In this document: one piece after another, positions 47,329 through 60,074 of the stretch
How positions within the stretch are numbered: the stretch's first letter is position 1
How the letters are laid out: each line of letters starts with the position of its first letter
From: Rhodospirillaceae bacterium
GTDB lineage: Bacteria; Pseudomonadota; Alphaproteobacteria; Rhodospirillales; Rhodospirillaceae
Length of the DNA: 64,000 nucleotides
Direction: 5' to 3'
NCBI GenBank assembly: GCA_009693785.1
Contig: SHWP01000009.1
Coordinates: 1 to 64,000 of the forward strand
The notes under the pieces: model-generated
The model's database searches: none
What the model was told of the DNA's origin: nothing
What the model saw: the letters and a program-made list of their open reading frames with translations, nothing else
Program-made: the position numbers and the translations under genes

Positions 47329-47516
47329 GGGCTTAGTCCTAAATATGGCCAGGAAACAAGCCAATCCCCGTAGCAGCCAGGCCCGCGCACCGTCAAGGCG
47401 GCCAGCCTATGGGCGCGGGGTGAGCTAAGATGAAAATAATATAGACGGAGCCAGCCTCCGCGCTGAATGATGGCGGCTAGAATGACAAAGAACCAAAAGT
47501 TCCAATGGGGGTCCAT

Positions 47517-48452
47517 ATGCGCGGTGTTGTAATTGGTTTCGCGTTGAGCATCGCCGTGGCGGGAAGCGCCGTGGCGGCCGAAAGCATGAAACCTGGAACT
47601 GTATTCCGCGATTGCCCCACCTGCCCCGAAATGGTCGTGGTGCCGCCAGGAAGTTTCACCATGGGCTCTGATGCCAAGAACACCATGCGCGGCGGCGAAG
47701 CCCGGCCCGAGGGCCCGGCCCGTCCGGTCACTATCGCCAAGCTCTTTGCCGCGGGGCGCATGGAACTGACCAACGCGCAGTTTCGCGCCTTCGTCAAAGC
47801 CACCGGCCACGTCTCGTCGCGGGATTGCAGCATCGGACTGGGCAAAGAAGAGTTTGATAAACTCGACTTCGAAGGGCCCTTTTTTGGCCGCAAACCCGCC
47901 GATGACGAAGCCGTGGTCTGCGTGTCGTGGAACGATGCCAAAGATTATGCCGCCTGGATGTCAGGCGTGACAGGCAAGCGCTACCGGCTGTTGACCGAGG
48001 CCGAGTGGGAATATGCAACCAAGGCGGGCGCCAAGACCAAATGGCCGTGGGGCGACAACGACCTCGACGCCTGCAAGTACGAGAACACGTATGACTTAGA
48101 CAGCGCAGCAGACATGCCTGCTGGAGCCAAAGTTAATTGGGAGGCACTCGCCTGCCATGATGGCCAAGGCCGCATCGCCAAGGTTGGCTCGTATCCACCC
48201 AACACCTTCGGGTTGTACGACATGCTGGGGAATGTGTGGGAATGGGTCGAGGATTGTTCGCTCGAACTTTATCCCGCCACACCCAATGACGGCTCTGCCG
48301 TTCAAGTGGCTGCCAATTGCGAGAAGCGCGGCGTGCGCGGTGGCAGCTGGTACACCCGTCAAGACCGCCACCGCACCACCTTCCGGGGCCGCGATGCATC
48401 GACCGACCAAGCCCATCATTTCGGCATCCGCATCGCGCGCGATATTGAATAG
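47517..48452 (+). CDS. Exported SUMF1/FGE-fold protein, copy A
   Basis: About 311 residues. I start at ATG 47517, which has GGGGG seven bases upstream and opens the signal peptide MRGVVIGFALSIAVAGSAVA. The domain begins FRDCPTCPEMVVVPPGSFTMGSD and includes the core RLLTEAEWEYATKAGAKTKWPWGD, LYDMLGNVWEWVEDC and CEKRGVRGGSWYTRQDRHRTTFRGRD, the full formylglycine-generating-enzyme fold. The paired active-site Cys of true FGEs near the end (around RGGSxxC...C) are absent, so it is probably a binding or other-function member. Copy B follows 28 bases downstream and copy C is at 60 kb. Confidence 0.85.
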   Translation: MRGVVIGFALSIAVAGSAVAAESMKPGTVFRDCPTCPEMVVVPPGSFTMGSDAKNTMRGGEARPEGPARPVTIAKLFAAGRMELTNAQFRAFVKATGHVSSRDCSIGLGKEEFDKLDFEGPFFGRKPADDEAVVCVSWNDAKDYAAWMSGVTGKRYRLLTEAEWEYATKAGAKTKWPWGDNDLDACKYENTYDLDSAADMPAGAKVNWEALACHDGQGRIAKVGSYPPNTFGLYDMLGNVWEWVEDCSLELYPATPNDGSAVQVAANCEKRGVRGGSWYTRQDRHRTTFRGRDASTDQAHHFGIRIARDIE

Positions 48453-48480: not shown

Positions 48481-49413
48481 ATGAGATTTTTTCCTCTTCT
48501 GCTATCGGTCGCAGCCGTTGTTAATCTTGCCGGATGTGCGTCATCCGGCGGGCCCACCAAAGCGTTTCGCGATTGCGCGAATTGTCCGGACATGGTCCGC
48601 GTTGCGGGCGGCACATTCCAAATGGGCTCGGATCGCGTTGAAGAAATGCGCGCGGACGAAACGCGGCCCGAAGGGCCAATCCGCACCGTCACCATCAAAC
48701 GCGCGTTCGCACTTGGCAAATATGAGGTTACCAACGCTCAATTTCGGCAATTCATCAACGCCACGGGCTACCGCCCATCGGCGGTGTGCAATACTTGGGT
48801 TGGTAAAGAAGCCCTCGCCGTAATGGATTGGCGTAACCCCGGCCATAGCAAGCCGCCCGCCGAAAATGAACCGGTGGTGTGCGCGTCGTGGTACGATGCC
48901 AAGGCCTATGTGGCGTGGCTGTCGGGTGTAACCGGAAAGCTTTATCGACTACCGACGGAAGCCGAATGGGAATATGCCGCCAAGGCTGGCAGCAGCACCA
49001 CATGGCCGTGGGGCGAAGACGAAACCCAGGCCTGCAAATATATGAACACTTACGATCTTGATGCCAAGGATAAGATCCCGCCCGAGCGTGCAGTACGTTG
49101 GGAAGCCACCAACTGCCGCGACGGATTTGCCGAGGCCGCGCCCGTGGGCTCGTTCCCAGCGAATGCCTTTGGCTTGCATGACATGCTGGGCAACGTGTGG
49201 GAATGGAACGAGGACTGCTCGCCCAAACTTTATGCCGCCAAGCCCGATGACGGCTCGGCCTATCAGCACGAGAAGTTGTGCGACATGCGCTCGGTGCGCG
49301 GCGGCAGTTGGCAAACGCGCCAAAGCCGCAACCGGCCGACCTTCCGGGGCCGCGACCCCGAACTGCGCGCCTCGCACATCTTCGGGTTCCGGGTGGCGAG
49401 AGATTTGGATTAG
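48481..49413 (+). CDS. SUMF1/FGE-fold lipoprotein, copy B
   Basis: 310 residues. The signal MRFFPLLLSVAAVVNLAGC has a lipobox (LAGC), so the protein is probably lipid-anchored. Domain blocks mirror copy A: FRDCANCPDMVRVAGGTFQMGSD, YRLPTEAEWEYAAKAGSSTTWPWGED, LHDMLGNVWEWNEDC and SVRGGSWQTRQSRNRPTFRGRDPELR. Again the C-terminal catalytic Cys pair of genuine FGE is missing. The conserved N-terminal FRDCxxCPxM is common to all three copies and may form a disulfide. The tandem with copy A implies joint expression. Confidence 0.87.
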   Translation: MRFFPLLLSVAAVVNLAGCASSGGPTKAFRDCANCPDMVRVAGGTFQMGSDRVEEMRADETRPEGPIRTVTIKRAFALGKYEVTNAQFRQFINATGYRPSAVCNTWVGKEALAVMDWRNPGHSKPPAENEPVVCASWYDAKAYVAWLSGVTGKLYRLPTEAEWEYAAKAGSSTTWPWGEDETQACKYMNTYDLDAKDKIPPERAVRWEATNCRDGFAEAAPVGSFPANAFGLHDMLGNVWEWNEDCSPKLYAAKPDDGSAYQHEKLCDMRSVRGGSWQTRQSRNRPTFRGRDPELRASHIFGFRVARDLD

Positions 49414-49427
49414 CGCATCGCACCCAG

Positions 49428-50210
49428 CTAAATCTTTGTGCCTTCTTTATCCCACACTTTCTTTTGAGCATCCCAGGCGTCAGGCGCCTTGGCGCCAAAG
49501 GCCGCGGGGTTCATTTGCCGCGTGACGATGGGCAGCGTCGAACCATCGGGCTCGAAAAATTGCCCGCCGGTTTCGACCGTGAGATTGTCGATAATTTTCT
49601 TCAGATGCGCCGCACTTTCATCGACCGTGAACACGCCCATATCGGCGGTGGATTTGGTTTTCACGAAGCCCGGATGCGCACAGGCGACCGCGATGCCGCG
49701 CGGCTTTAGCAGTAAGGACAGTTGCATCACCACCTGATTGAGCGCGCTTTTGGATGAGCGGAACAAAATCATTCCTGCGGGCGGCTTTGAGCCAATGCGG
49801 CTGGATAAGAAAAACATTTTTTTCTGCGCGCTGGCCGCCACATTCTCCACAAACGTTTCAGCCAGTTTCATCTGCGCCATAGTGTTGATCTTGAAGGCCT
49901 CCATCCAGGCCTCGTAGTTGGTATCGCCAATCGTTGAAGCCGGATTGTTGGTTTTGGCGGCATTGCCCAACAGCAGGTCGATGGGTTTGCCCTTGAGCTT
50001 CGCGCCAAGCGCGTCGATGGTGGCGAAGTTGGCAAGATCGCAGGTTTCAATACTCAATTTACCTGGGTGCGCCTTGGCAAGCGCTTGCAAGTCAGTGGCA
50101 TTCGCCGGATCGCGCACGGGGGCAATGACCTCCCATCCCTCGCGCAGATAAAGACTCGCAAACCCAAATCCGAGCCCGCGATTAGCACCCGTGATCAGAA
50201 CTGTGGGCAT
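49428..50210 (-). CDS. Short-chain dehydrogenase/reductase-like protein with Tyr-to-Phe change
   Basis: 260 residues. The Rossmann motif is ITGANRGLGFGFASLYLREG, cofactor-side DLAN and LLLGNAAKTNN. The catalytic YxxxK block reads LFRSSKSALN: Phe150 stands where the proton-donating Tyr should be (codon TTC checked), with Lys154 retained and Ser136/137 nearby. It may be a non-catalytic or altered SDR of the C-factor type. Its ATG is 13 bases downstream of the nitrilase-like gene's stop, so the two are an operon. Confidence 0.85.
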   Translation of the reverse strand: MPTVLITGANRGLGFGFASLYLREGWEVIAPVRDPANATDLQALAKAHPGKLSIETCDLANFATIDALGAKLKGKPIDLLLGNAAKTNNPASTIGDTNYEAWMEAFKINTMAQMKLAETFVENVAASAQKKMFFLSSRIGSKPPAGMILFRSSKSALNQVVMQLSLLLKPRGIAVACAHPGFVKTKSTADMGVFTVDESAAHLKKIIDNLTVETGGQFFEPDGSTLPIVTRQMNPAAFGAKAPDAWDAQKKVWDKEGTKI

Positions 50211-50222
50211 TATAGTCCTTCC

Positions 50223-51254
50223 TTACTCCGCCTCAATCACGCCGAGTTTGCGCAAACGTTCAATCACCTGCTGCTGCAGGCCCTTGAAGTGCTCAGGCGT
50301 GGGGTCTTTGGTCATCAATGAATTGGGTGGATAGAAATCTTTGCGGGCGTAGGTCGAGGCATACAAGTCCATGCGCAGCCGTGTCGGGAAGTTATTGATA
50401 TCGGCGGCGTTACGCGCCCGGCGCAGCGCGGTGATGTTGATATCCGAGGCGGCCGCAACGGTTTCGCCAAAGCCCGCTTCATTCAGCACCCGGCCCTCGA
50501 AGTCGATGACCTTCGATAGCCCATCGCAGGTGTTGTCGAGAAACGGATAGCCGATCATGCCCGCGGAATTCGCCGAGACAACGTAGGCCAAATTTTCAAT
50601 GGCCCGGGCGCGCTTCATGATGTCCTTGGGCGTCAGGCCGGTTTTGTAAGGCTCTGAGGTGGGATGACAAAACACTTCCGCGCCACGCAAGGCAAAGCAA
50701 CGCACCAATTCGGGGTATTGGATTTCTTCCGAAGCGATGCAGGCCAAATTGCCGATGGGTGTTTTCGCCACGGGGAACAGCGCATCGGCCCCGTAAATAT
50801 CCAGATACTTATCGAGGTAATCGTGTGGCGTGGGCGTGAACATCGACGTCAGGCGGTGATAGTGCAGAATCAATTTCCCCGCCGGATCGAAAATGAACGA
50901 GCCTTGGAAGAACACATTGGGGAAGTGTTTGTCGCGCACATAGGCATTGCCAGCCAAATACACTTTGGCGTTCTGGGCAATAGCTGCTAGCGCGGTGTAT
51001 TCGGGTCCGTCGACATCCACAGCCGCCAGCCCCGCCCATTTCGGAATTGACATGCCCATGGGAACCCCGGTCATGAAATATTCCGGCAGCACAAACAATT
51101 TGGCATCGGGCCCAGCCGAAATGCGGCTGCCGGGCACTGTGACCTTGAGGCGCTCAATGCAGCGCATCATCATTGCTTGGGCAGTGGCCCGGTCTGGGCA
51201 GTCATTGACCGGATGGCAGGCGAGCTGCATGGGCACGGCTCGATAAACCAGCAT
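50223..51254 (-). CDS. Carbon-nitrogen hydrolase (nitrilase superfamily) with Lys-to-Arg change
   Basis: About 343 residues from ATG 51254, which has AGGGGAA upstream; the track adds 22 residues. Catalytic Glu58 is in FVLPEYF and the nucleophile Cys172 in GNLACIASEEIQYPELVR. At the middle triad position, usually YRK, it reads HYHRLTS, with Arg134 in place of Lys. Other family blocks are normal (VYLAGNAYV, GSFIFDPAGKLIL, EVFCHPTSEPY). Length matches single-domain relatives and parts of it resemble domain 2 of the gene at the left edge. Substrate unknown. Confidence 0.85.
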   Translation of the reverse strand: MLVYRAVPMQLACHPVNDCPDRATAQAMMMRCIERLKVTVPGSRISAGPDAKLFVLPEYFMTGVPMGMSIPKWAGLAAVDVDGPEYTALAAIAQNAKVYLAGNAYVRDKHFPNVFFQGSFIFDPAGKLILHYHRLTSMFTPTPHDYLDKYLDIYGADALFPVAKTPIGNLACIASEEIQYPELVRCFALRGAEVFCHPTSEPYKTGLTPKDIMKRARAIENLAYVVSANSAGMIGYPFLDNTCDGLSKVIDFEGRVLNEAGFGETVAAASDINITALRRARNAADINNFPTRLRMDLYASTYARKDFYPPNSLMTKDPTPEHFKGLQQQVIERLRKLGVIEAE

Positions 51255-51412
51255 TGCGGGTTCCCCTTCCCCTGGCGGCGTTGGCAGATTAGCGTGGCTA
51301 CACGGCAACGCAAATCGCATGATACCAGCGGTATGCTACAGCGCCCGACACCATCACGTTTTCGCCATGAATGATTGCGACAAATCATGGAGTTGAAAAG
51401 AACAGGTCCGAA

Positions 51413-52120
51413 ATGACGGTATTTATGAGATCAGTGTCCATGCCCACGGTGTTGATGTCGTTGGCGCTTGCGGCCTGCGGCAGCGACGGCGGTAATGGCG
51501 GGCCCGGACGGCGCGAAGCGGGGATGTATATGGAAGGCTTGGGCGGGCGCGGGCTTATCATTCGCCCCGGGCCAAGCGCGAACGAAGCTTACTCCGGCGG
51601 GATTGATCTAAAAAAGCGCGGCGACTGTGCGGGTGCAATCGCCAAGCTTACGCCCGTGGCTAACCTTGGACCTGGCTATGAAAATGCGCAGTCGGCTTTG
51701 AGCGAGTGCCTGCTCGCTGGTGCGGCAACCCCCGAAAGCAGTCAATACATGGAGGGCTTAGTGTGGCTAATCCGCGCCGCCGACGGCGGCTGGACCGATG
51801 CACAAGGCAAACTTGCCCAGATTTATGCCCTTGGCCCTGCAAATCATCGCAACCTTGATGAGGCGGCATTGAGACTGGCACTCTATCGCAGCAGCGCATC
51901 GGTGGCACGGCTTGGCTTCACGCCCTTGGAGAAAAACGTTGAAGACCGCATTGCAACTGCCGTTGGCCCCGAGCGCATGAAAGCTGCTGAGACTCGAGCC
52001 GCCACTTGGCAGCCCAAGTTGTGGGTTCCACAGCGGCCAGCACAGGACTCAGGCCCAGAAATGCGCGGCCAGCGTCGCGGGCCACCGCTACAGCAACATC
52101 TACAACTTGCTCGTAGTTAG
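51413..52120 (+). CDS. Hypothetical lipoprotein with Sel1-like repeats
   Basis: About 235 residues. From ATG 51413 (AACAGG upstream) the lead MTVFMRSVSMPTVLMSLALAACGSDGG has a lipobox (LAAC). After a Gly-rich linker it has helical stretches of the Sel1/TPR sort (GIDLKKRGDCAGAIAKLTPVANLGPGYENAQSALSECLLAG, then LIRAADGGWTDAQGKLAQIYALGP). The C-terminus is basic and Gln/Pro-rich. Such repeats mediate protein contacts at the envelope. It overlaps the stop of the convergent VOC gene by four bases. Specific role unknown. Confidence 0.7.
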   Translation: MTVFMRSVSMPTVLMSLALAACGSDGGNGGPGRREAGMYMEGLGGRGLIIRPGPSANEAYSGGIDLKKRGDCAGAIAKLTPVANLGPGYENAQSALSECLLAGAATPESSQYMEGLVWLIRAADGGWTDAQGKLAQIYALGPANHRNLDEAALRLALYRSSASVARLGFTPLEKNVEDRIATAVGPERMKAAETRAATWQPKLWVPQRPAQDSGPEMRGQRRGPPLQQHLQLARS

Positions 52121-53232
52121 CGTTTTTTCTTCGCCGTTTTCTTTTTTGCCGGTTTCTTCGGTGCGGATTTTTTCTGGGCTGCCGGCTTTGCTTTTTTCTT
52201 CGCAGGCTTGGCCTTCGATTTGGCAGCTTTTGCTTTGACCGGCGCCAACTGCCCTTTCGACGGCACGCTTACGCGTTGTGTGAATTCGAACATCTCCTCG
52301 TTCGGACCCTTGGCTAGCATGGTCTTGTAAGGCATGCCGTCATCGGTGATCAGCGTCGGCGGCGTGACAATCTCCGAGCCGTACACGCGTAGCTTTTGGT
52401 GGAGTTCATCGAGGTTCTTGGCATCGTGAGTGAGCAACGAAAAGCCAAGATGGCCGGGCTTCATGCGGCCCACGAGCCGCTTGCCGGTGCGATTGAAGAA
52501 ATGCACACACAAAATTTTGCCGCTGGCTTCGGGCGGATCGCCATAAAGCAGGAAGTGAATGCGTGTGCCATCGGGCGTTCCGGTGAGGTTATTGACCTGG
52601 CTGCGATAGGCTTCGGGCGTTTCCGCATCGCCGACCGCTTTGAGGCCAAGCACCCCTGAATAAAAGGCGCGCGTGCGTGTCAGATCGCCTGCGACAACAG
52701 AGATGGTGGGAATTTCGCTAAAGGGGCCGTCAGGCGAACCGGCGCGCATCGATGTGGGGAAATGACGGTGACCGACCATGATCAACACCGGCACGCCATC
52801 GGGTCCTGAGAACAAGCACTCCTCGCTGATCGTGTCGCCGATTTGGTGTTTGACGGGTTGCGAGCGGAATTTGTAGCCCGCCATCTCGATCTTGCGCACC
52901 GAAGGCAGTATCGGATCAGCGACATAAAAGTCGATGGCCTTGGGCCCAACATCGGTGCCTGAGTCGGCATTGATCGCGCCAAAGTCGAGTCGGACTTTTT
53001 GCGTGGGCGTTGGCGTGAATTCCACCAAGCGCAGCTGCCCGATCGGGTAGCCCTTGCACGATAACACCGCCATGTTCGCCTTGGTGCCGGGCGCGATCCG
53101 CCAGGCGTTGAGCAGACTTTGCGGCACGGGGCCGGCGCGCTCGACCTTCAGCTGCATGATATCGCGAAACAGGCTTAACGCCTGTTTCATGTTGGTGACA
53201 CCCACGGTCGCAAGTCGCATTGCCGAAACCAT
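52117..53232 (-). CDS. Two-domain VOC protein with a histone-H1-like Lys/Ala tail
   Basis: 371 residues. Two vicinal-oxygen-chelate units: residues about 1-140 (LATVGVTNMKQALSLFRDIMQLKVERAG) and about 155-300 (ISVVAGDLTRTRAFYSGVLGLKAVGDAE). Residues 326-371 are a Lys/Ala/Pro tail (KAKAAKSKAKPAKKKAKP...) with 20 lysines in 46, like histone H1 or other nucleic-acid-binding tails. Tail and VOC domain together are unusual; the tail may bind DNA, RNA or polyphosphate, or be a localisation element (inference). AAGGGGAA seven bases before the ATG supports the start. Divergent from the exported MBL gene across a hairpin-containing gap. Confidence 0.82.
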   Translation of the reverse strand: MVSAMRLATVGVTNMKQALSLFRDIMQLKVERAGPVPQSLLNAWRIAPGTKANMAVLSCKGYPIGQLRLVEFTPTPTQKVRLDFGAINADSGTDVGPKAIDFYVADPILPSVRKIEMAGYKFRSQPVKHQIGDTISEECLFSGPDGVPVLIMVGHRHFPTSMRAGSPDGPFSEIPTISVVAGDLTRTRAFYSGVLGLKAVGDAETPEAYRSQVNNLTGTPDGTRIHFLLYGDPPEASGKILCVHFFNRTGKRLVGRMKPGHLGFSLLTHDAKNLDELHQKLRVYGSEIVTPPTLITDDGMPYKTMLAKGPNEEMFEFTQRVSVPSKGQLAPVKAKAAKSKAKPAKKKAKPAAQKKSAPKKPAKKKTAKKKR

Positions 53233-53274
53233 GCCGTTCCCCTTCCTTGATCCAAACGCCAGCCAAATGTGTGC

Positions 53275-53303
53275 CTTCTGGGCAGTAGTCCACTGCCCAG
53301 AAG
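53275..53303. repeat. Perfect 12-bp inverted repeat in a divergent promoter region
   Basis: CTTCTGGGCAGT-agtcc-ACTGCCCAGAAG is an exact palindrome with a five-base spacer between divergent genes (VOC protein and MBL enzyme). No T-run follows on either side, so an operator or mRNA hairpin is more likely than a terminator. Confidence 0.65.
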
Positions 53304-53367
53304 CGGGCCTATTATGGCGGGGGATGATTGAGCCGCCTAGCGCGGTTGTTTGTGATTGGAGGGGATA

Positions 53368-54237
53368 ATGCGAGCCCTGCTCGGCATATTAATTATCGCC
53401 ATAACCTGGACTGAGGCCGCCTGGGGCCAAGCTTCGGCCATTCCAGCCGACATGCGCAACCGTGTGACGACCGAGCTTGCGCCTGGGCTTTATACCTTTG
53501 GCAGCTTCGCGGCACGCAGCATTTTTGTGGTCGGCGAGGACGGTGTGATCGCAACCGATCCTGTCAACCCCGACTTCGCCAAGGACATGCGCGCGGCCAT
53601 TACCAAGATTACCGATAAGCCTGTGAAGTACGTGGTGTATTCGCATCAGCATTGGGACCACGTACGCGGCGGGAAGATCTTTAAGGATGAAGGCGCTACG
53701 TTCATCAGCCATGAAAATTGCGTGAAGCATTTCACTGCCGACCCAAACCCCGATGTCGTGATGCCCGATAAAACTGTGAAGGGTGGCGAGAGTGTTTCGG
53801 TTAAAGGCAAGACGCTGAAGTTGATGTACTTTGGGCGCAATCATGGCGATTGCATGCTGGTGATGCAGCTTGAAGGCGCAGACGTTTTATACGTAAACGA
53901 TCTGGTGACCCCCTACTCCCTCGGCCTAGGCTTCATGCCCGATTATAATCCAAAGGAATGGGCCCGCACTCTCGGCGAGTTAGAAGCCAAGCCCGATTGG
54001 CAGCGCATGGTAGGCGGACATGGGTTGGAATTTGGAAAGCGCGATGCAGTCACGCAACGCAAGCGGTTCTTAGAGCAGCTTATGGCTGCGGTGAAGCCAG
54101 AGTTCGACAAAGGCCGCAGCGCCGACGACATTGCTGCAACCATTGACCTGCCCGAGTTCAAGAACGTGCGTGGTTACAAGGAACAAATCGCGCGAGCTGC
54201 CGAACGTATTTATCACTACTATGAAATGGGATGGTGA
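53368..54237 (+). CDS. Exported metallo-beta-lactamase-fold hydrolase, copy 1
   Basis: About 289 residues. ATG 53368 has a near-perfect GGAGGGGAT site and starts a signal peptide (MRALLGILIIAITWTEAAWGQA). The zinc motif is intact: YSHQHWDHVRGG (H93, H95, D97, H98), followed by FGRNHGDCML and GGHGLEFG for the remaining ligands. It would be a periplasmic di-zinc hydrolase; whether it acts on lactams, lactones or phosphoesters is open. It is the first of four genes in a tightly packed plus-strand run with a second MBL protein, a DUF1838 protein and a methyltransferase. Confidence 0.87.
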   Translation: MRALLGILIIAITWTEAAWGQASAIPADMRNRVTTELAPGLYTFGSFAARSIFVVGEDGVIATDPVNPDFAKDMRAAITKITDKPVKYVVYSHQHWDHVRGGKIFKDEGATFISHENCVKHFTADPNPDVVMPDKTVKGGESVSVKGKTLKLMYFGRNHGDCMLVMQLEGADVLYVNDLVTPYSLGLGFMPDYNPKEWARTLGELEAKPDWQRMVGGHGLEFGKRDAVTQRKRFLEQLMAAVKPEFDKGRSADDIAATIDLPEFKNVRGYKEQIARAAERIYHYYEMGW

Positions 54238-54239
54238 CC

Positions 54240-55148
54240 ATGAAGCTTTCAATTCTAGCCACGGTAATATCAGCACTTTCGGCTAGCGCCTTCGCAGCCG
54301 ATGCGCCCACTCGTGAAGAGTTGTTGAGACCTGCCCCCAACCCCGCCTGGAACCGGTTCGTCGTTGGTAAAGGCGAGACTCTTGAACTTACGCCGGGCGT
54401 TTACACTTACTCGGGCAGTGCCCGGACTATTTTCATCGTCACCAAGGACGGCGTAATTGCGACCGACCCAGCGACGCCCGCCGACGCCAAGGCAATGCGC
54501 GAGGCCATTCGCAAGGTGACCGATAAGCCGGTGAAATATGTGGTCTATTCACATAACCACTGGGACCACGTGCGTGGCGGGCAAATTTTCAAGGACGAGG
54601 GCGCGAAGTTCATTTCCCACGAGAAATGCGTGCAGCATTTCAAGGACAAGCCCGATCCCGACATTGTCATGCCTGACATCACGTTCCCCAAGAACTACAC
54701 TGTGAAATTAGGTGGGCGTAAATTGGAGCTGATCTATCTCGGCCCCAATCACGGTGACTGCTTGGTGTTTATGCGCCCTGATGGCGATGCGCATAAATAT
54801 TTATTTGCCGTCGATATCGCCACGCCCGGCGGCGCGCCGCTAACATTCATGGCCGGCTACGATCCTTACAACTGGATACGGACCTTGAAAGAATTAGAGG
54901 CAATGGATTTCACCGCCATCATTCCCGGCCACGGCGTGCCCCTGGCCGATAAATCAGCCCTTACCGAGCGGCGACACTATCTGGAAGCGGTGATGGCGGC
55001 GGTAAAAAAGGCCACGGATGAGGGTATGCCCGCTGACCAAATTGCCGACAAAGTCCGGGTCCCTGAGTTCGCTTACTTGCGCGGCTACGATATTAATGTC
55101 CGGGACAACGTTCGCCGCATGCAGGCGTTTTACGGGATTGGTGAATAA
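54240..55148 (+). CDS. Exported metallo-beta-lactamase-fold hydrolase, copy 2
   Basis: About 302 residues from ATG 54240, two bases after the stop of copy 1 (an earlier ATG at 54231 overlaps that stop). Signal peptide MKLSILATVISALSASAFA. The zinc motif SHNHWDHVRGG, LGPNHGDCLVF and IPGHGVPLAD are all present. It shares whole blocks with copy 1 (KVTDKPVKYVVYSH, KDEGAKFISHEKCVQHF), showing tandem duplication. Its stop shares a base with the start of the next gene, so translation is coupled. Confidence 0.9.
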   Translation: MKLSILATVISALSASAFAADAPTREELLRPAPNPAWNRFVVGKGETLELTPGVYTYSGSARTIFIVTKDGVIATDPATPADAKAMREAIRKVTDKPVKYVVYSHNHWDHVRGGQIFKDEGAKFISHEKCVQHFKDKPDPDIVMPDITFPKNYTVKLGGRKLELIYLGPNHGDCLVFMRPDGDAHKYLFAVDIATPGGAPLTFMAGYDPYNWIRTLKELEAMDFTAIIPGHGVPLADKSALTERRHYLEAVMAAVKKATDEGMPADQIADKVRVPEFAYLRGYDINVRDNVRRMQAFYGIGE

Positions 55149-55954
55149 TGGATCAGGTTGCGCGGCGCGCGCTATTGGCTGGCGGCAGCACAGCCACTTT
55201 GGTCGCTGTTGCGCGAGCTGCTCATTGCGTTGAGGCAGCAGCCCCCAATCTTGCCGTTGATTACGTCAAGATCCGCGCACGCATGGATGGCAACCCAGTC
55301 TATTGGTTGTCGCGGGGCGTGAAGTACCTGCTGGCAAATTATCAGATCACGCCGCTGCATGGCTTCAACATGGTCTCATGCGTCGTGGCCGATAAGACAG
55401 GCGATGGCTTCACCGTGCGCACGCTTGAGGCTTCATTTGCCGTCGATGTTGCTGGCACGACGTTGGTTGATTCGTTTTTCAATCCGCTCACCAAGGCCAA
55501 TGAAAAAATCCCCGCCGTTGCACCGCTAGTGGTGGGCTACGATTTCGCACCCGATGGTGCCATGACATTGCCTGTGGCTGATCCGCGTCGTGCAAACACA
55601 GATTTTTCTGGGCAAATATTGCCGCGCGCGGGTATGAGCAGTCACATCGCCATGGAAGAACGCTTTGTGGTCCGGCCGAAAGGCGGCGGGGTCAGCGCGT
55701 TGAGCGAAGTGATTAAGTACACGGGCGTTCAATCATCATGGCAGGCTGCAAGCGGTATGTTTATGCGGGCCACCAAGACCCTGGTTGTCTTGCGAAATTG
55801 GAATTTTGGCGGTGGCGATGCGACGGCCATGCTGCTTTCGACGTACGATGGCCAAAAGTTTCTGACGTTCGATGACGTCATTGCTGAAGCAGGCCGGGAC
55901 AAGATCGAACAAGCCCAACCCGGCTTTGTGCAAAAGCTCGCCGCGTTTTTGTAA
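55148..55954 (+). CDS. Tat-exported DUF1838-family protein
   Basis: 268 residues. The ATG overlaps the preceding stop (TAATG). The N-terminus ARRALLAGGSTATLVAVARAA looks like a twin-arginine signal. The rest (VDYVKIRARMDGNPVYWLSRGVKYLLANYQITPLHGFNMVSCVV ... TLVDSFFNPLTKANEKIPAV) fits the DUF1838 pattern, a family of unknown function. Tight coupling to two MBL-fold enzymes suggests it acts on the same substrate in the periplasm (inference). Confidence in the exact family is moderate. Confidence 0.72.
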   Translation: MDQVARRALLAGGSTATLVAVARAAHCVEAAAPNLAVDYVKIRARMDGNPVYWLSRGVKYLLANYQITPLHGFNMVSCVVADKTGDGFTVRTLEASFAVDVAGTTLVDSFFNPLTKANEKIPAVAPLVVGYDFAPDGAMTLPVADPRRANTDFSGQILPRAGMSSHIAMEERFVVRPKGGGVSALSEVIKYTGVQSSWQAASGMFMRATKTLVVLRNWNFGGGDATAMLLSTYDGQKFLTFDDVIAEAGRDKIEQAQPGFVQKLAAFL

Positions 55955-55964
55955 GACAGAGCAT

Positions 55965-56846
55965 ATGCAAGTCAGTGACATCGACGCCACCAATGCCGCC
56001 ACGCTGGCCGCTATTCGCGATGGCCGCGCTGTCGTTGACCCAGGCGCGTTTCCATACATCGGATTTTACAACGTCGATCTGTTCGATTGCCCGCCGTTTG
56101 TGATGTACACGGCCGACGATTGCCCGCGCGCGCATAACATTCTCTATCAACGTGAATTCGAGCCGATGTCGATGCTGATCTGGTGCAAGCTTGCGCGCAC
56201 TGCCACAGGCATTGTCGATTTGGGCGCACATGTGGGGGTTTATTCTTTGGCGGCGTCGGCATTGCGCCCTGATCTTAAAATTCAAGCCTTCGAGCCGAAC
56301 CCCTATGCCTACACGCGATTGCGCCTGCACAAGACCATGAATGGGTTTCAGAATCTGGTCGACCATCCCTACGGCGTAGCGCGCAAAGAAACGATGGTGA
56401 AGTTCAGCTGGCGGCTTAAGGGCAAGCACATGATTTCGTCAGGCGCCTCGATCGGGCATTACGGCCCCGAGACACCGCAACAAACTTTAATCACGCAGAT
56501 GATCTGCCTCGACGATACCGACTTTCATACCCGCATGGGCGCACGCCCGCTAATCAAGATGGATATTGAGGGGTCAGAGGATCACGCCATCGACGGCATG
56601 ACCAAGATTTTCGCGTTAAAGCCTGATTTGCTATATGAAACCAACTTACAAAAGGCCGCCGATAAGCTCACGCCGATGATGCAGGCCTTAGGTTATTCGT
56701 TCTACTTAGTGCGCGAGAAACAACGCCAATTGGTGCACCGCGACCGGCTTTACAAATCGGATTTGGAAGCCGGGGATCTCAACCAATTTCTGACCGTGCG
56801 CCCGCGCGCCGAAGTGGCGGCGATGTTTAACGTCGTCGCAGCGTAA
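55965..56846 (+). CDS. FkbM-family methyltransferase
   Basis: About 293 residues from ATG 55965, ten bases after the DUF1838 stop; the track's longer frame runs back into that gene. The SAM-binding start GIVDLGAHVGVYSLAASAL and AFEPNPYAYTRLRLH, then KMDIEGSEDHAIDGM, are typical FkbM blocks. Such enzymes O-methylate small molecules or sugars. It has no signal peptide, unlike its operon neighbours, so it may only be co-transcribed. Confidence 0.87.
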   Translation: MQVSDIDATNAATLAAIRDGRAVVDPGAFPYIGFYNVDLFDCPPFVMYTADDCPRAHNILYQREFEPMSMLIWCKLARTATGIVDLGAHVGVYSLAASALRPDLKIQAFEPNPYAYTRLRLHKTMNGFQNLVDHPYGVARKETMVKFSWRLKGKHMISSGASIGHYGPETPQQTLITQMICLDDTDFHTRMGARPLIKMDIEGSEDHAIDGMTKIFALKPDLLYETNLQKAADKLTPMMQALGYSFYLVREKQRQLVHRDRLYKSDLEAGDLNQFLTVRPRAEVAAMFNVVAA

Positions 56847-56853
56847 TTATTTT

Positions 56854-57345
56854 CTACAGCTTGGTCGGATTTGGCGCATCGCCATAGACCTCTTTCGGAT
56901 CGAAAGCCTTGGCGGCTTCTTCGTAATTGAGTTTTTCAATCACATTGCCGAGTGGTTGGCCCAAGGGCACTGAGCGGTAAAAGCAGCTTTTGAAACCGAC
57001 ATGGCAACTGGCCCCCGAGCCGCCCACACGCACGCGCAGCCACACGGCGTCTTGGTCGTCATCGATGCGCAGCTCCTCGACCTTCTGCACCAGGCCAGAG
57101 GTGCCGCCCTTGTGCCATAAAACTTGTCTACTGCGGCTAAAGTAGTGGGCCTCGCCCGTCTCGATGGTTTTGGCCAAGGCCTCGGCGTTCATGTAGCCCA
57201 CCATTAGCAACGTACCCGTCTCGGCATCGGTGGTGATGGCCGGTAGCAGGCCCTGGTCGTCAAACTTCGGGGCCAAGGTATGACCCTCCTCGACCTGCTC
57301 AACGGAGAGGCGCTTGCCAAAGGTCGGGGCTGCGGCGGGGGTCAT
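56854..57345 (-). CDS. hisI: Phosphoribosyl-AMP cyclohydrolase (histidine biosynthesis)
   Basis: About 163 residues from ATG 57345 (AAGGACC upstream); the track's longer start adds 49 residues unlikely to be coding. It opens the purine ring of phosphoribosyl-AMP, the third step of histidine synthesis. Family blocks: [63 protein letters not shown] and a zinc-binding Cys region [15 protein letters not shown]. No other his genes are adjacent. A C-terminal extension ([24 protein letters not shown]) follows the core. Divergent from cysS. Confidence 0.93.
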
Positions 57346-57527
57346 GGGGTTGGTCCTTGATTGAGTCTGGGGCTGGAGATGCCCCCCGGGCCTCGGAAAG
57401 TCAACCAAGGGGTCTAACCAATCCGATGGCTTGATGTGGGGCAACCGGGTGGTTTTGCAATCCCAGGGCCGTTGGAGTATCACCCCAGGCATACAACCCC
57501 TTGCCCGCAGGCCCTGAAAAACCGTCT

Positions 57528-58907
57528 ATGTCATTGATTCTTTACAATACTTTGATGCGACGCAAGGAGCCGTTCACCCCCGCCGACCCGGCCCGGGTGA
57601 CCATGTATGTGTGCGGCAACACGGTTTACAGCTACGCCCACATCGGCAATGCCCGTCCGCCCGTGGTTTTTGACGTCCTGCACCGGCTGTTGAAGGCCCG
57701 GTATGGCCAGGTGGCCTATGCCCGCAATATCACCGATGTAGATGACAAGATTAACGCCGCCGCCAAGGCCCAGAAGGTGCCCATTACCGCCATTACCGAC
57801 AAATTCGCCCGGATTTACCGCGAGGATATGGCCGCCCTAGGCGTACTACCCCCCACCAGCGAACCCCACGCCACGGGCCATATTCGCGAGATTGTGGCCA
57901 TGATCGAAGGCCTCATTGCCTCGGGTCATGCCTATGCCGCGGAAGGCCATGTTTTGTTTAATGTTCCAGCCTTTGCGGCCTATGGCCAGCTCTCGGGCCG
58001 CAACCGTGACGACATGGTTGCCGGTGCCCGGGTCGAGGTTGCCCCCTACAAAAAAGACCCGGCCGATTTTGTGCTGTGGAAGCCCTCGACCCTCGACCTG
58101 CCCGGTTGGGATAGCCCCTGGGGCCGGGGCAGGCCGGGTTGGCATATCGAATGCTCGGCCATGATCGAGGCCCACCTGGGCCAAACCATCGACATTCATG
58201 GCGGCGGCAACGACCTGATTTTCCCGCACCATGAAAACGAGATCGCCCAGAGCGTGTGTGCCCATGGCGGTGCGCCGCTGGCCCGCTATTGGATGCACAA
58301 CGGCTTTCTGACCATGGACAAAGAGAAGATGTCCAAGTCGCTGGGTAATGTGCTGCTCGTCAACGAGATCCTAAAAACAGCGCCAGCCGAAGCAGTGCGC
58401 TGGGCGCTGCTGAGTGCGCACTACCGCCAACCGTTGGACTGGTCCGACGATCTCATCACTCAAGCCAAGCGCACGTTAGACCGTTTGTATTTAGCGCTCG
58501 ATCAAATCAAAGGCCTTTCTGCGGCCAACACCCAAGCCCCTGCTGCCGTCATCGCGGCGCTCGACGACGATCTCAACACACCTATTGCCATGGCCGAGAT
58601 TGCCAACGTCGCCCGCATGCTGAACTCCGCTACCACTGATGCAGACAAGGCGCGCCTGAAAGGCGAATTGCTGGCGGCAGGTGCGATGTTGGGTGTGCTG
58701 CAACAAGACCCTGCCGTTTGGTTAAAGGGCACCAGCAGCACCACTGATGTGAATGCCTCCGAGGTTGAGCAACTTATTGCCGCTCGCAATGCCGCGCGCA
58801 AAGCGCGTGACTTCAAAGAAGCTGATCGTATCCGTGATCAGATCGCCGCCTTGGGCGTGGTGATCGAAGATCGTGCCGATGGCACACATTGGCGCAAGGC
58901 AGGATAA
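57528..58907 (+). CDS. cysS: Cysteine--tRNA ligase
   Basis: About 459 residues, the usual size. Class I synthetase signatures: [13 protein letters not shown] for the HIGH motif and [10 protein letters not shown] for KMSKS. The zinc/cysteine site starts with [15 protein letters not shown], and the other ligands fall in [15 protein letters not shown] and [18 protein letters not shown]. It charges tRNA-Cys in the cytoplasm. I use ATG 57528 ([16 protein letters not shown]), matching the family start, instead of the track's earlier frame start. argE follows six bases after the stop. Confidence 0.97.
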
Positions 58908-58913
58908 AGCATC

Positions 58914-60074
58914 ATGCCCAACACCGCGCGCGCTATCGATATGCTCAAGACACTGGTGGGGTTCGACACGGTTTCGCGTAAATCGAATTTGGCCTTGATT
59001 GAGCATGTGCGCGGACTGCTTGCCGCGCACGGTATCGAGGGCCGCTTGGTGTACAACGACTCCAAGACCAAGGCGAATTTACTGGCGACCATCGGGCCCA
59101 ACGTGGCCGGTGGGGTGGTACTGTCGGGTCATACCGATGTGGTACCGGTTGAAGATCAAGACTGGCATAGCGACCCATTCCAAGTCGTGGAGAAGGACGG
59201 CAAGCTGTTTGGGCGCGGCACGTCCGACATGAAGGCTTTCGTGGCGATTGCGTTGGCCGCCTTACCCGACATGACTAAGGCAGGACTAAAACGACCCATC
59301 CATTTTGCTTTCTCTTACGACGAAGAGGTGGGCTGTGTTGGCGTGCCTTCGCTCATCAAGCTGTTGAACGCCGAGTTACCCAAGCCCAGCGCCGTCGTGG
59401 TGGGCGAGCCCACCGAGATGAAGGTGGTGACCGCCCACAAAAGCGTGACGGGTGTGCGCACGGTCATCACGGGCCATGAAGCCCATTCCTCACAACCCCA
59501 TCGCGGGGTCAGTGCGGTAATGGTAGCGGCAGAGTTGATCGAATTCCTGCGGGCCGTGAGCGCCGATGCGGCCAAGCGTGGGCCAACCAATCCGCTATTC
59601 GAGCCTGAGCACACCACCATTACCATCAACCGCATCGAAGGCGGCACCGCGCCCAATATCATGGCGGGCCATTGTGCCTTTCAGTGGGACGTCCGCTCGC
59701 TGCCCGAGGAAGACCCCACCGTTTATATCCGCCGCTTCACCGACCATTGCCGCGATGTGGTGCTGCCGCGCCTGCATAAAATCTCCACGCTCTGCAAAAT
59801 TGAATCGGTGGCACGCGCCAGCACCCCTGCCCTGAAGCCTGAAAAAAACTCAGACGCCGAACAACTCTGCCGCATGCTGACGGGCGATAACGTCACCCGG
59901 CATGTGTCCTTCGCCGCCGAGGCGGGGCAGTTTCAACATTCAGGTTTGGCGACCGTCATTTGCGGGCCAGGTTCCATCACTCAGGCCCATCAGCCCAACG
60001 AATTCATCGACGTAAGCCAGGTTGAGCTGGGCGTGAAATTCGTCGACGACTTGATCAAGCACTTAAGCCGGTAG
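58914..60074 (+). CDS. argE: Acetylornithine deacetylase (M20 family)
   Basis: 386 residues, standard for ArgE. Metal and catalytic blocks: VVLSGHTDVVPVEDQDWHSDPF (His and Asp ligands), LFGRGTSDMKAF (bridging Asp), SYDEEVGCVGVPSL (catalytic Glu) and the distal CGPGSITQAHQPNEF His. It removes the acetyl group from N-acetylornithine in arginine synthesis. It lies six bases downstream of cysS, likely on one transcript. It ends immediately before the convergent SUMF1-like gene. Confidence 0.93.
   Translation: MPNTARAIDMLKTLVGFDTVSRKSNLALIEHVRGLLAAHGIEGRLVYNDSKTKANLLATIGPNVAGGVVLSGHTDVVPVEDQDWHSDPFQVVEKDGKLFGRGTSDMKAFVAIALAALPDMTKAGLKRPIHFAFSYDEEVGCVGVPSLIKLLNAELPKPSAVVVGEPTEMKVVTAHKSVTGVRTVITGHEAHSSQPHRGVSAVMVAAELIEFLRAVSADAAKRGPTNPLFEPEHTTITINRIEGGTAPNIMAGHCAFQWDVRSLPEEDPTVYIRRFTDHCRDVVLPRLHKISTLCKIESVARASTPALKPEKNSDAEQLCRMLTGDNVTRHVSFAAEAGQFQHSGLATVICGPGSITQAHQPNEFIDVSQVELGVKFVDDLIKHLSR

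Follow-up and report, generated by a model that had tools for sequence, protein, structure and literature searches.

Lysine-rich tails of the histone H1 type have been described on several bacterial proteins. The C-terminal domain of PhaF from Pseudomonas putida binds DNA and is disordered when free (PMC3574117), and the tail of AlgP from Pseudomonas aeruginosa is required for the spacing of polyphosphate (polyP) granules and links DNA binding to that spacing (PMC9239181). The lysine-rich C-terminal tails of actinobacterial TopA, HupB and Ku raise DNA affinity, and were likened to histone H1 by the authors (PMC7398561). More generally, lysine-rich low-complexity regions of prokaryotes are enriched in DNA-binding proteins, and eukaryotic surveys, as that work cites them, find low-complexity regions depleted in metabolic proteins (PMC6821194). 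In the open-access literature we found no vicinal oxygen chelate (VOC) protein with such a tail. The 371-residue VOC protein described here resembles PhaF in having a disordered Lys/Ala/Pro-rich C-terminal region on a body with another job, but the body of PhaF consists of a PHA-binding helix that carries an oligomerisation zipper, and its repeats are more regular. No phasin or PHA-binding domain of the PhaF type was found in the VOC protein, in which Glyoxalase was the sole Pfam match at 1e-3. It shares an H1-like C-terminal region with AlgP, in which, however, this region is a 154-residue array of regular KPAA repeats attached to a helical N-terminal domain that is not an enzyme fold. The bodies of TopA, HupB and Ku already bind DNA, while that of the VOC protein is a small-molecule enzyme fold.

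The gene lies in a 64,000-nucleotide stretch of a Rhodospirillaceae genome (assembly GCA_009693785.1, contig SHWP01000009.1), the whole of which is referred to as the window (Table 1). An initial annotation, made from sequence alone, described it as a VOC enzyme fused to an H1-like tail; the open reading frame, the two-domain VOC fold and the tail counts proved correct by sequence, Pfam, AlphaFold2 and Foldseek, whereas the status of the protein as an enzyme is uncertain. Pfam Glyoxalase PF00903 matched residues 174-317 (E 4.6e-13) and was present in all 16 orthologues scanned, and the N-terminal module had no Pfam match of its own at 1e-3. The AlphaFold2 model, for which a 16-sequence alignment was the input, contains two VOC modules (pTM 0.73), and the paired beta-alpha-beta-beta-beta modules that characterise the VOC superfamily were recovered by Pfam, AlphaFold2 and Foldseek together. 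Foldseek matches in the PDB that extended across both modules were two-domain VOC proteins, the top matches having E-values of 6e-15 to 2e-12, TM-scores to target of 0.59-0.71 and identities of 11-14%. These top matches, all of the same two-module architecture, were maize glyoxalase I (5D7Z), human GLOD4 (3ZI1), Bacillus cereus 1ZSW and dichlorohydroquinone dioxygenase (4HUZ). Profile matches to maize glyoxalase I were weak, phmmer found no close solved relative at E 0.1, and no NCBIfam model reached its cut-off, including the equivalogs for glyoxalase I, extradiol dioxygenase and HPPD. The VOC fold is secure.

Table 1. Features of the VOC locus, with positions in the window.
Feature	Coordinates	Strand	Basis or remark
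VOC gene	52117-53232	minus	Uninterrupted ATG to TAA, 371 aa
N-terminal VOC module, residues 1-155	52768-53232	minus	AlphaFold2 strands/helices 2-153, Foldseek
C-terminal VOC module, residues 170-320	52273-52725	minus	Pfam PF00903, AlphaFold2 strands to 320
H1-like Lys/Ala/Pro tail, residues 326-371	52120-52257	minus	Sequence, pLDDT, orthologue tails
Convergent lipoprotein-like ORF	51371-52120	plus	Translation; the stop codons of this ORF and of the VOC gene overlap
Two metallo-beta-lactamase-fold genes	53356-54237 and 54231-55148 (together 53356-55148)	plus	Pfam PF00753; divergent from VOC

The canonical metal ligands of VOC proteins are His, Gln and Glu, and are required in enzyme members but not in members that only bind. 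In contrast to the four structural relatives above, from which it also differs by the added H1-like tail, the 371-residue protein lacks the conserved canonical His ligands. At the level of aligned sequence, the ligand position of strand 1 is an invariant Thr176, the maize His ligand aligns with Leu266 (a shifted register would place Gly263 there), and the invariant Glu316 is the only canonical ligand kept, so that the canonical divalent-metal site is incomplete. Other conserved histidines (H226, H244 and H269) could form a different metal site, and enzymatic activity of this VOC-fold protein is uncertain.

The tail itself, KGQLAPVKAKAAKSKAKPAKKKAKPAAQKKSAPKKPAKKKTAKKKR, comprises 46 residues with 20 Lys, 12 Ala, 5 Pro, one Arg and neither Asp nor Glu, giving a net charge of about +21. 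The window has 299 open frames with a length of 80 codons or more, and the runner-up 46-residue stretch among them contains 9 Lys, and as such the composition of the tail is not due to chance. All residues of the tail have AlphaFold2 pLDDT values below 50, a level indicating predicted disorder. The region is therefore terminal, predicted to be disordered, rich in Lys/Ala/Pro and nearly devoid of acidic residues, as is characteristic of H1-like tails, and the initial description of it in these terms (20 of 46 residues Lys, none acidic) is upheld.

Conservation of the tail in orthologues had been proposed as a check, and we searched 73 genomes of the host's family. This identified 17 orthologues in five of 23 genera, nine of which carry in-frame Lys/Ala/Pro tails: all five from the genus of the window and two each from genera g3 and g17, which together are all the orthologues found in these three genera. 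Counted from the end of a conserved FEFTQ-type motif, these tails are 23, 31, 52, 54, 56, 61, 65, 77 and 118 residues long, with 35-48% Lys and at most two acidic residues. The other eight orthologues are tailless: the seven g2 proteins and the single g5 protein end one residue past the FEFTQ-type motif. L046, a more distant relative with 54% identity, stops within three residues of this motif. The eight tailless orthologues indicate that the tail is not needed for the VOC fold, and its absence from two genera that it is not essential to the VOC protein. A frameshift or annotation artefact was also ruled out as its origin, as the tail is in the same frame and follows the same body end in the nine orthologues, and no lysine tail is hidden in any frame behind the stops of the tailless ones. 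In such AAR-rich DNA a shift of one base would give mostly Arg and a shift of two bases Glu, and the Lys frame is the one used in all nine. Neither of the outcomes named beforehand as counting against the tail, its absence from all close orthologues or its creation by a frameshift, was thus observed. The best tree requires a minimum of two gains or losses, with the tailed L038 beside the tailless clade, although the data do not reject a tree in which the tailed orthologues form one clade (p-AU 0.19). Spread of the gene on plasmids was rejected, since the VOC body had no tblastn match among 72,556 plasmids.

The tails cannot be aligned residue by residue: composition is kept, while sequence and length vary freely. 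Together with clear repeat expansion in two of the nine (L034 and L036), this free variation is what would be expected if the tail were near-neutral baggage, in which Lys/Ala repeats born of slippage are tolerated in basic-shifted, freshwater proteomes and have no specific binding role. The tailed relatives include the RH-23may17 MAGs, Baikal-G1, K_Offshore and HKST-UBA118, and the tailless ones SFB_South and SI073, sample codes that we take to be mostly freshwater and marine or estuarine, respectively. The net charge of the VOC body is -15 to -21 in tailless orthologues (-4 in L046) and -8 to +28 in tailed ones. All seven neighbouring genes compared (window 49428-59999 and L032-L045), namely cysS, hisI, both metallo-beta-lactamase-fold genes, a CN-hydrolase, an SDR and one more, are likewise more acidic in the tailless relatives. 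This looks like a compact example of the proteome charge shift known from marine-freshwater pairs (PMC6706942), and body charge as a VOC-specific change was accordingly rejected. The same shift across neighbouring genes would suit a neutral origin of the tail. However, composition has been kept in nine lineages almost without acidic residues, and tails with 40% Lys on selected proteins are not what a proteome shift towards low salt would predict. The tails use a mixture of codons, and seven of the nine have a longest DNA repeat no longer than synonymous shuffling can produce, which indicates that their composition reflects more than recent slippage. In addition, one genome that is tailless for this VOC, G008, keeps lysine tails on other proteins. 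We therefore regard near-neutral baggage as a possible but rather unlikely explanation.

The surroundings of the gene are conserved irrespective of the tail on one side. The VOC gene is divergent from at least one metallo-beta-lactamase-fold gene (cluster 2) in both tailed and tailless lineages, and hisI and cysS are located beyond these genes in both. The pairing is suggestively reminiscent of glyoxalase I/II. On the tail side, a lipoprotein-like gene (cluster 15) is convergent in most tailed lineages in which the flank is covered, and in several tailless lineages the neighbour is a short co-directional ORF. Polybasic tails are able to bind acidic lipids, and the metallo-beta-lactamase-fold proteins begin with hydrophobic leader-like segments, so that the conserved adjacency could reflect a tail that binds anionic membrane lipid and places the VOC protein beside the products of the divergent genes. 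We consider this highly improbable, as the tail has no hydrophobic or amphipathic element and the adjacency persists where the tail is absent. Elsewhere in the window, 47505-48452 and 48481-49413 encode adjacent paralogues of the FGE-sulfatase (formylglycine-generating-enzyme-like) type, also with leader-like N-termini.

The initial annotation regarded the fusion of a metabolic fold to such a tail as unusual, a view that is not borne out by the rest of the genome. C-terminal lysine extensions are present there on hydantoinase A and a cupin, a C-terminal Lys/Arg extension on a ManC-like mannose-phosphate enzyme, an N-terminal lysine extension on DksA, and a short mixed extension on a hexapeptide-repeat transferase. 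In genus mates, RsfS of G004 has a very long lysine tail and endonuclease III of G003 is also tailed. In the sister genus g19, GlyQ carries N-terminal lysine tails of roughly 60-90 residues in three genomes (L187, L193 and L199), peroxiredoxin is tailed in two genomes, and chorismate mutase and one VOC protein, the latter at its C-terminus, have lysine tails. In G008 the tailed proteins are the acetolactate synthase small subunit and an endoribonuclease L-PSP (RidA-type) family protein. Pfam assigns the extended proteins to unrelated families. The list is a lower bound, obtained from two DNA patterns and targeted fetches in genomes of the family, and control columns showed considerable background for the lysine-codon patterns. 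A tail unique to this VOC gene was accordingly rejected, as such extensions are found on many unrelated soluble proteins. We note that the GlyQ (glycyl-tRNA synthetase alpha subunit) extension of L187 has a weak score to Pfam HC2 (histone H1-like nucleoprotein).

A single-domain VOC protein of g19 (L108-L118) is particularly informative, having an N-terminal lysine tail in all ten members recovered. Like the 371-residue protein it has a lysine-rich tail at one terminus of a VOC fold, but it is a single module, is not an orthologue, and bears its tail at the other end; the two-domain orthologue was not found in g19 among the 73 family genomes, and relatives of the single-domain protein elsewhere in the order are without the N-terminal lysine tail. 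The presence of tails at opposite ends of different VOC proteins implies that VOC proteins have acquired lysine tails on more than one occasion. H1-like tails are known on bacterial DNA-binding and granule proteins, and the lineage described here adds them to many unrelated soluble proteins. As a separate observation, a micro-ORF outside the window (G000:C51:68449-68499, L099) encodes nearly only Lys and Ala, MAAKKKAKKKKAKKKA. Its relatives (L098 and L100-L106) are 13-24 residues long with a conserved AGGGGA-type ribosome-binding site upstream, and are present in genera g1, g3, g17 and probably g19; among 297 genomes of the order the micro-ORF was found in no other family, and it was found in none of the genera with tailless VOC.

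On balance, we think it probable that the VOC tail is a polyanion tether, and one case of family-wide lysine tailing of unrelated soluble proteins. The disordered cationic tail would act as a sequence-non-specific electrostatic tether, to RNA or nucleoid DNA in the first place and to polyP in the second, and would set where the VOC protein sits, as a portable localisation or condensation module separate from VOC chemistry. Against this reading, the tailed proteins have no obvious pathway in common. That the tail binds a polyanion, that tailed proteins co-localise, and which ligand they share are what we infer here; binding of DNA, RNA or polyP by the tail is predicted from its composition, and sequence cannot choose among the three. 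GlyQ, RsfS and DksA are linked to RNA, the ribosome or transcription, and the presence of tails on these partners makes RNA at least as likely a ligand as DNA. Specific targeting of the VOC protein to polyP granules, as with AlgP (PMC9239181), has the merit of this precedent and of the presence of PPK1 in 16 of the 17 genomes with the VOC gene, in which polyP is probably available. PPK1 is, however, equally present in tailless lineages, and PhaC, found in most of these genomes, also occurs in both groups, so that polyP does not explain the split and polyP or PHA machinery was rejected as a discriminator between tailed and tailless lineages. As the tails also differ from AlgP in having no regular KPAA repeat and their composition does not separate polyP from nucleic acids, there is in our view a slim chance that polyP is the specific target.

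An extension of the tether reading is that lysine tails serve generally as an address label, by which otherwise unrelated proteins of metabolism, translation and the stress response collect on a common polyanion scaffold, in which case VOC proteins, GlyQ, peroxiredoxin, chorismate mutase, hydantoinase, DksA and RsfS would be brought together on RNA, the nucleoid or polyP. We consider this quite unlikely. If true, polyelectrolyte attraction would be the basis of a bacterial compartment. The tailed and tailless orthologues of sister genera constitute a natural experiment, in which the gain or loss of the tail may bear on localisation, condensation, adaptation to salinity, or nothing.
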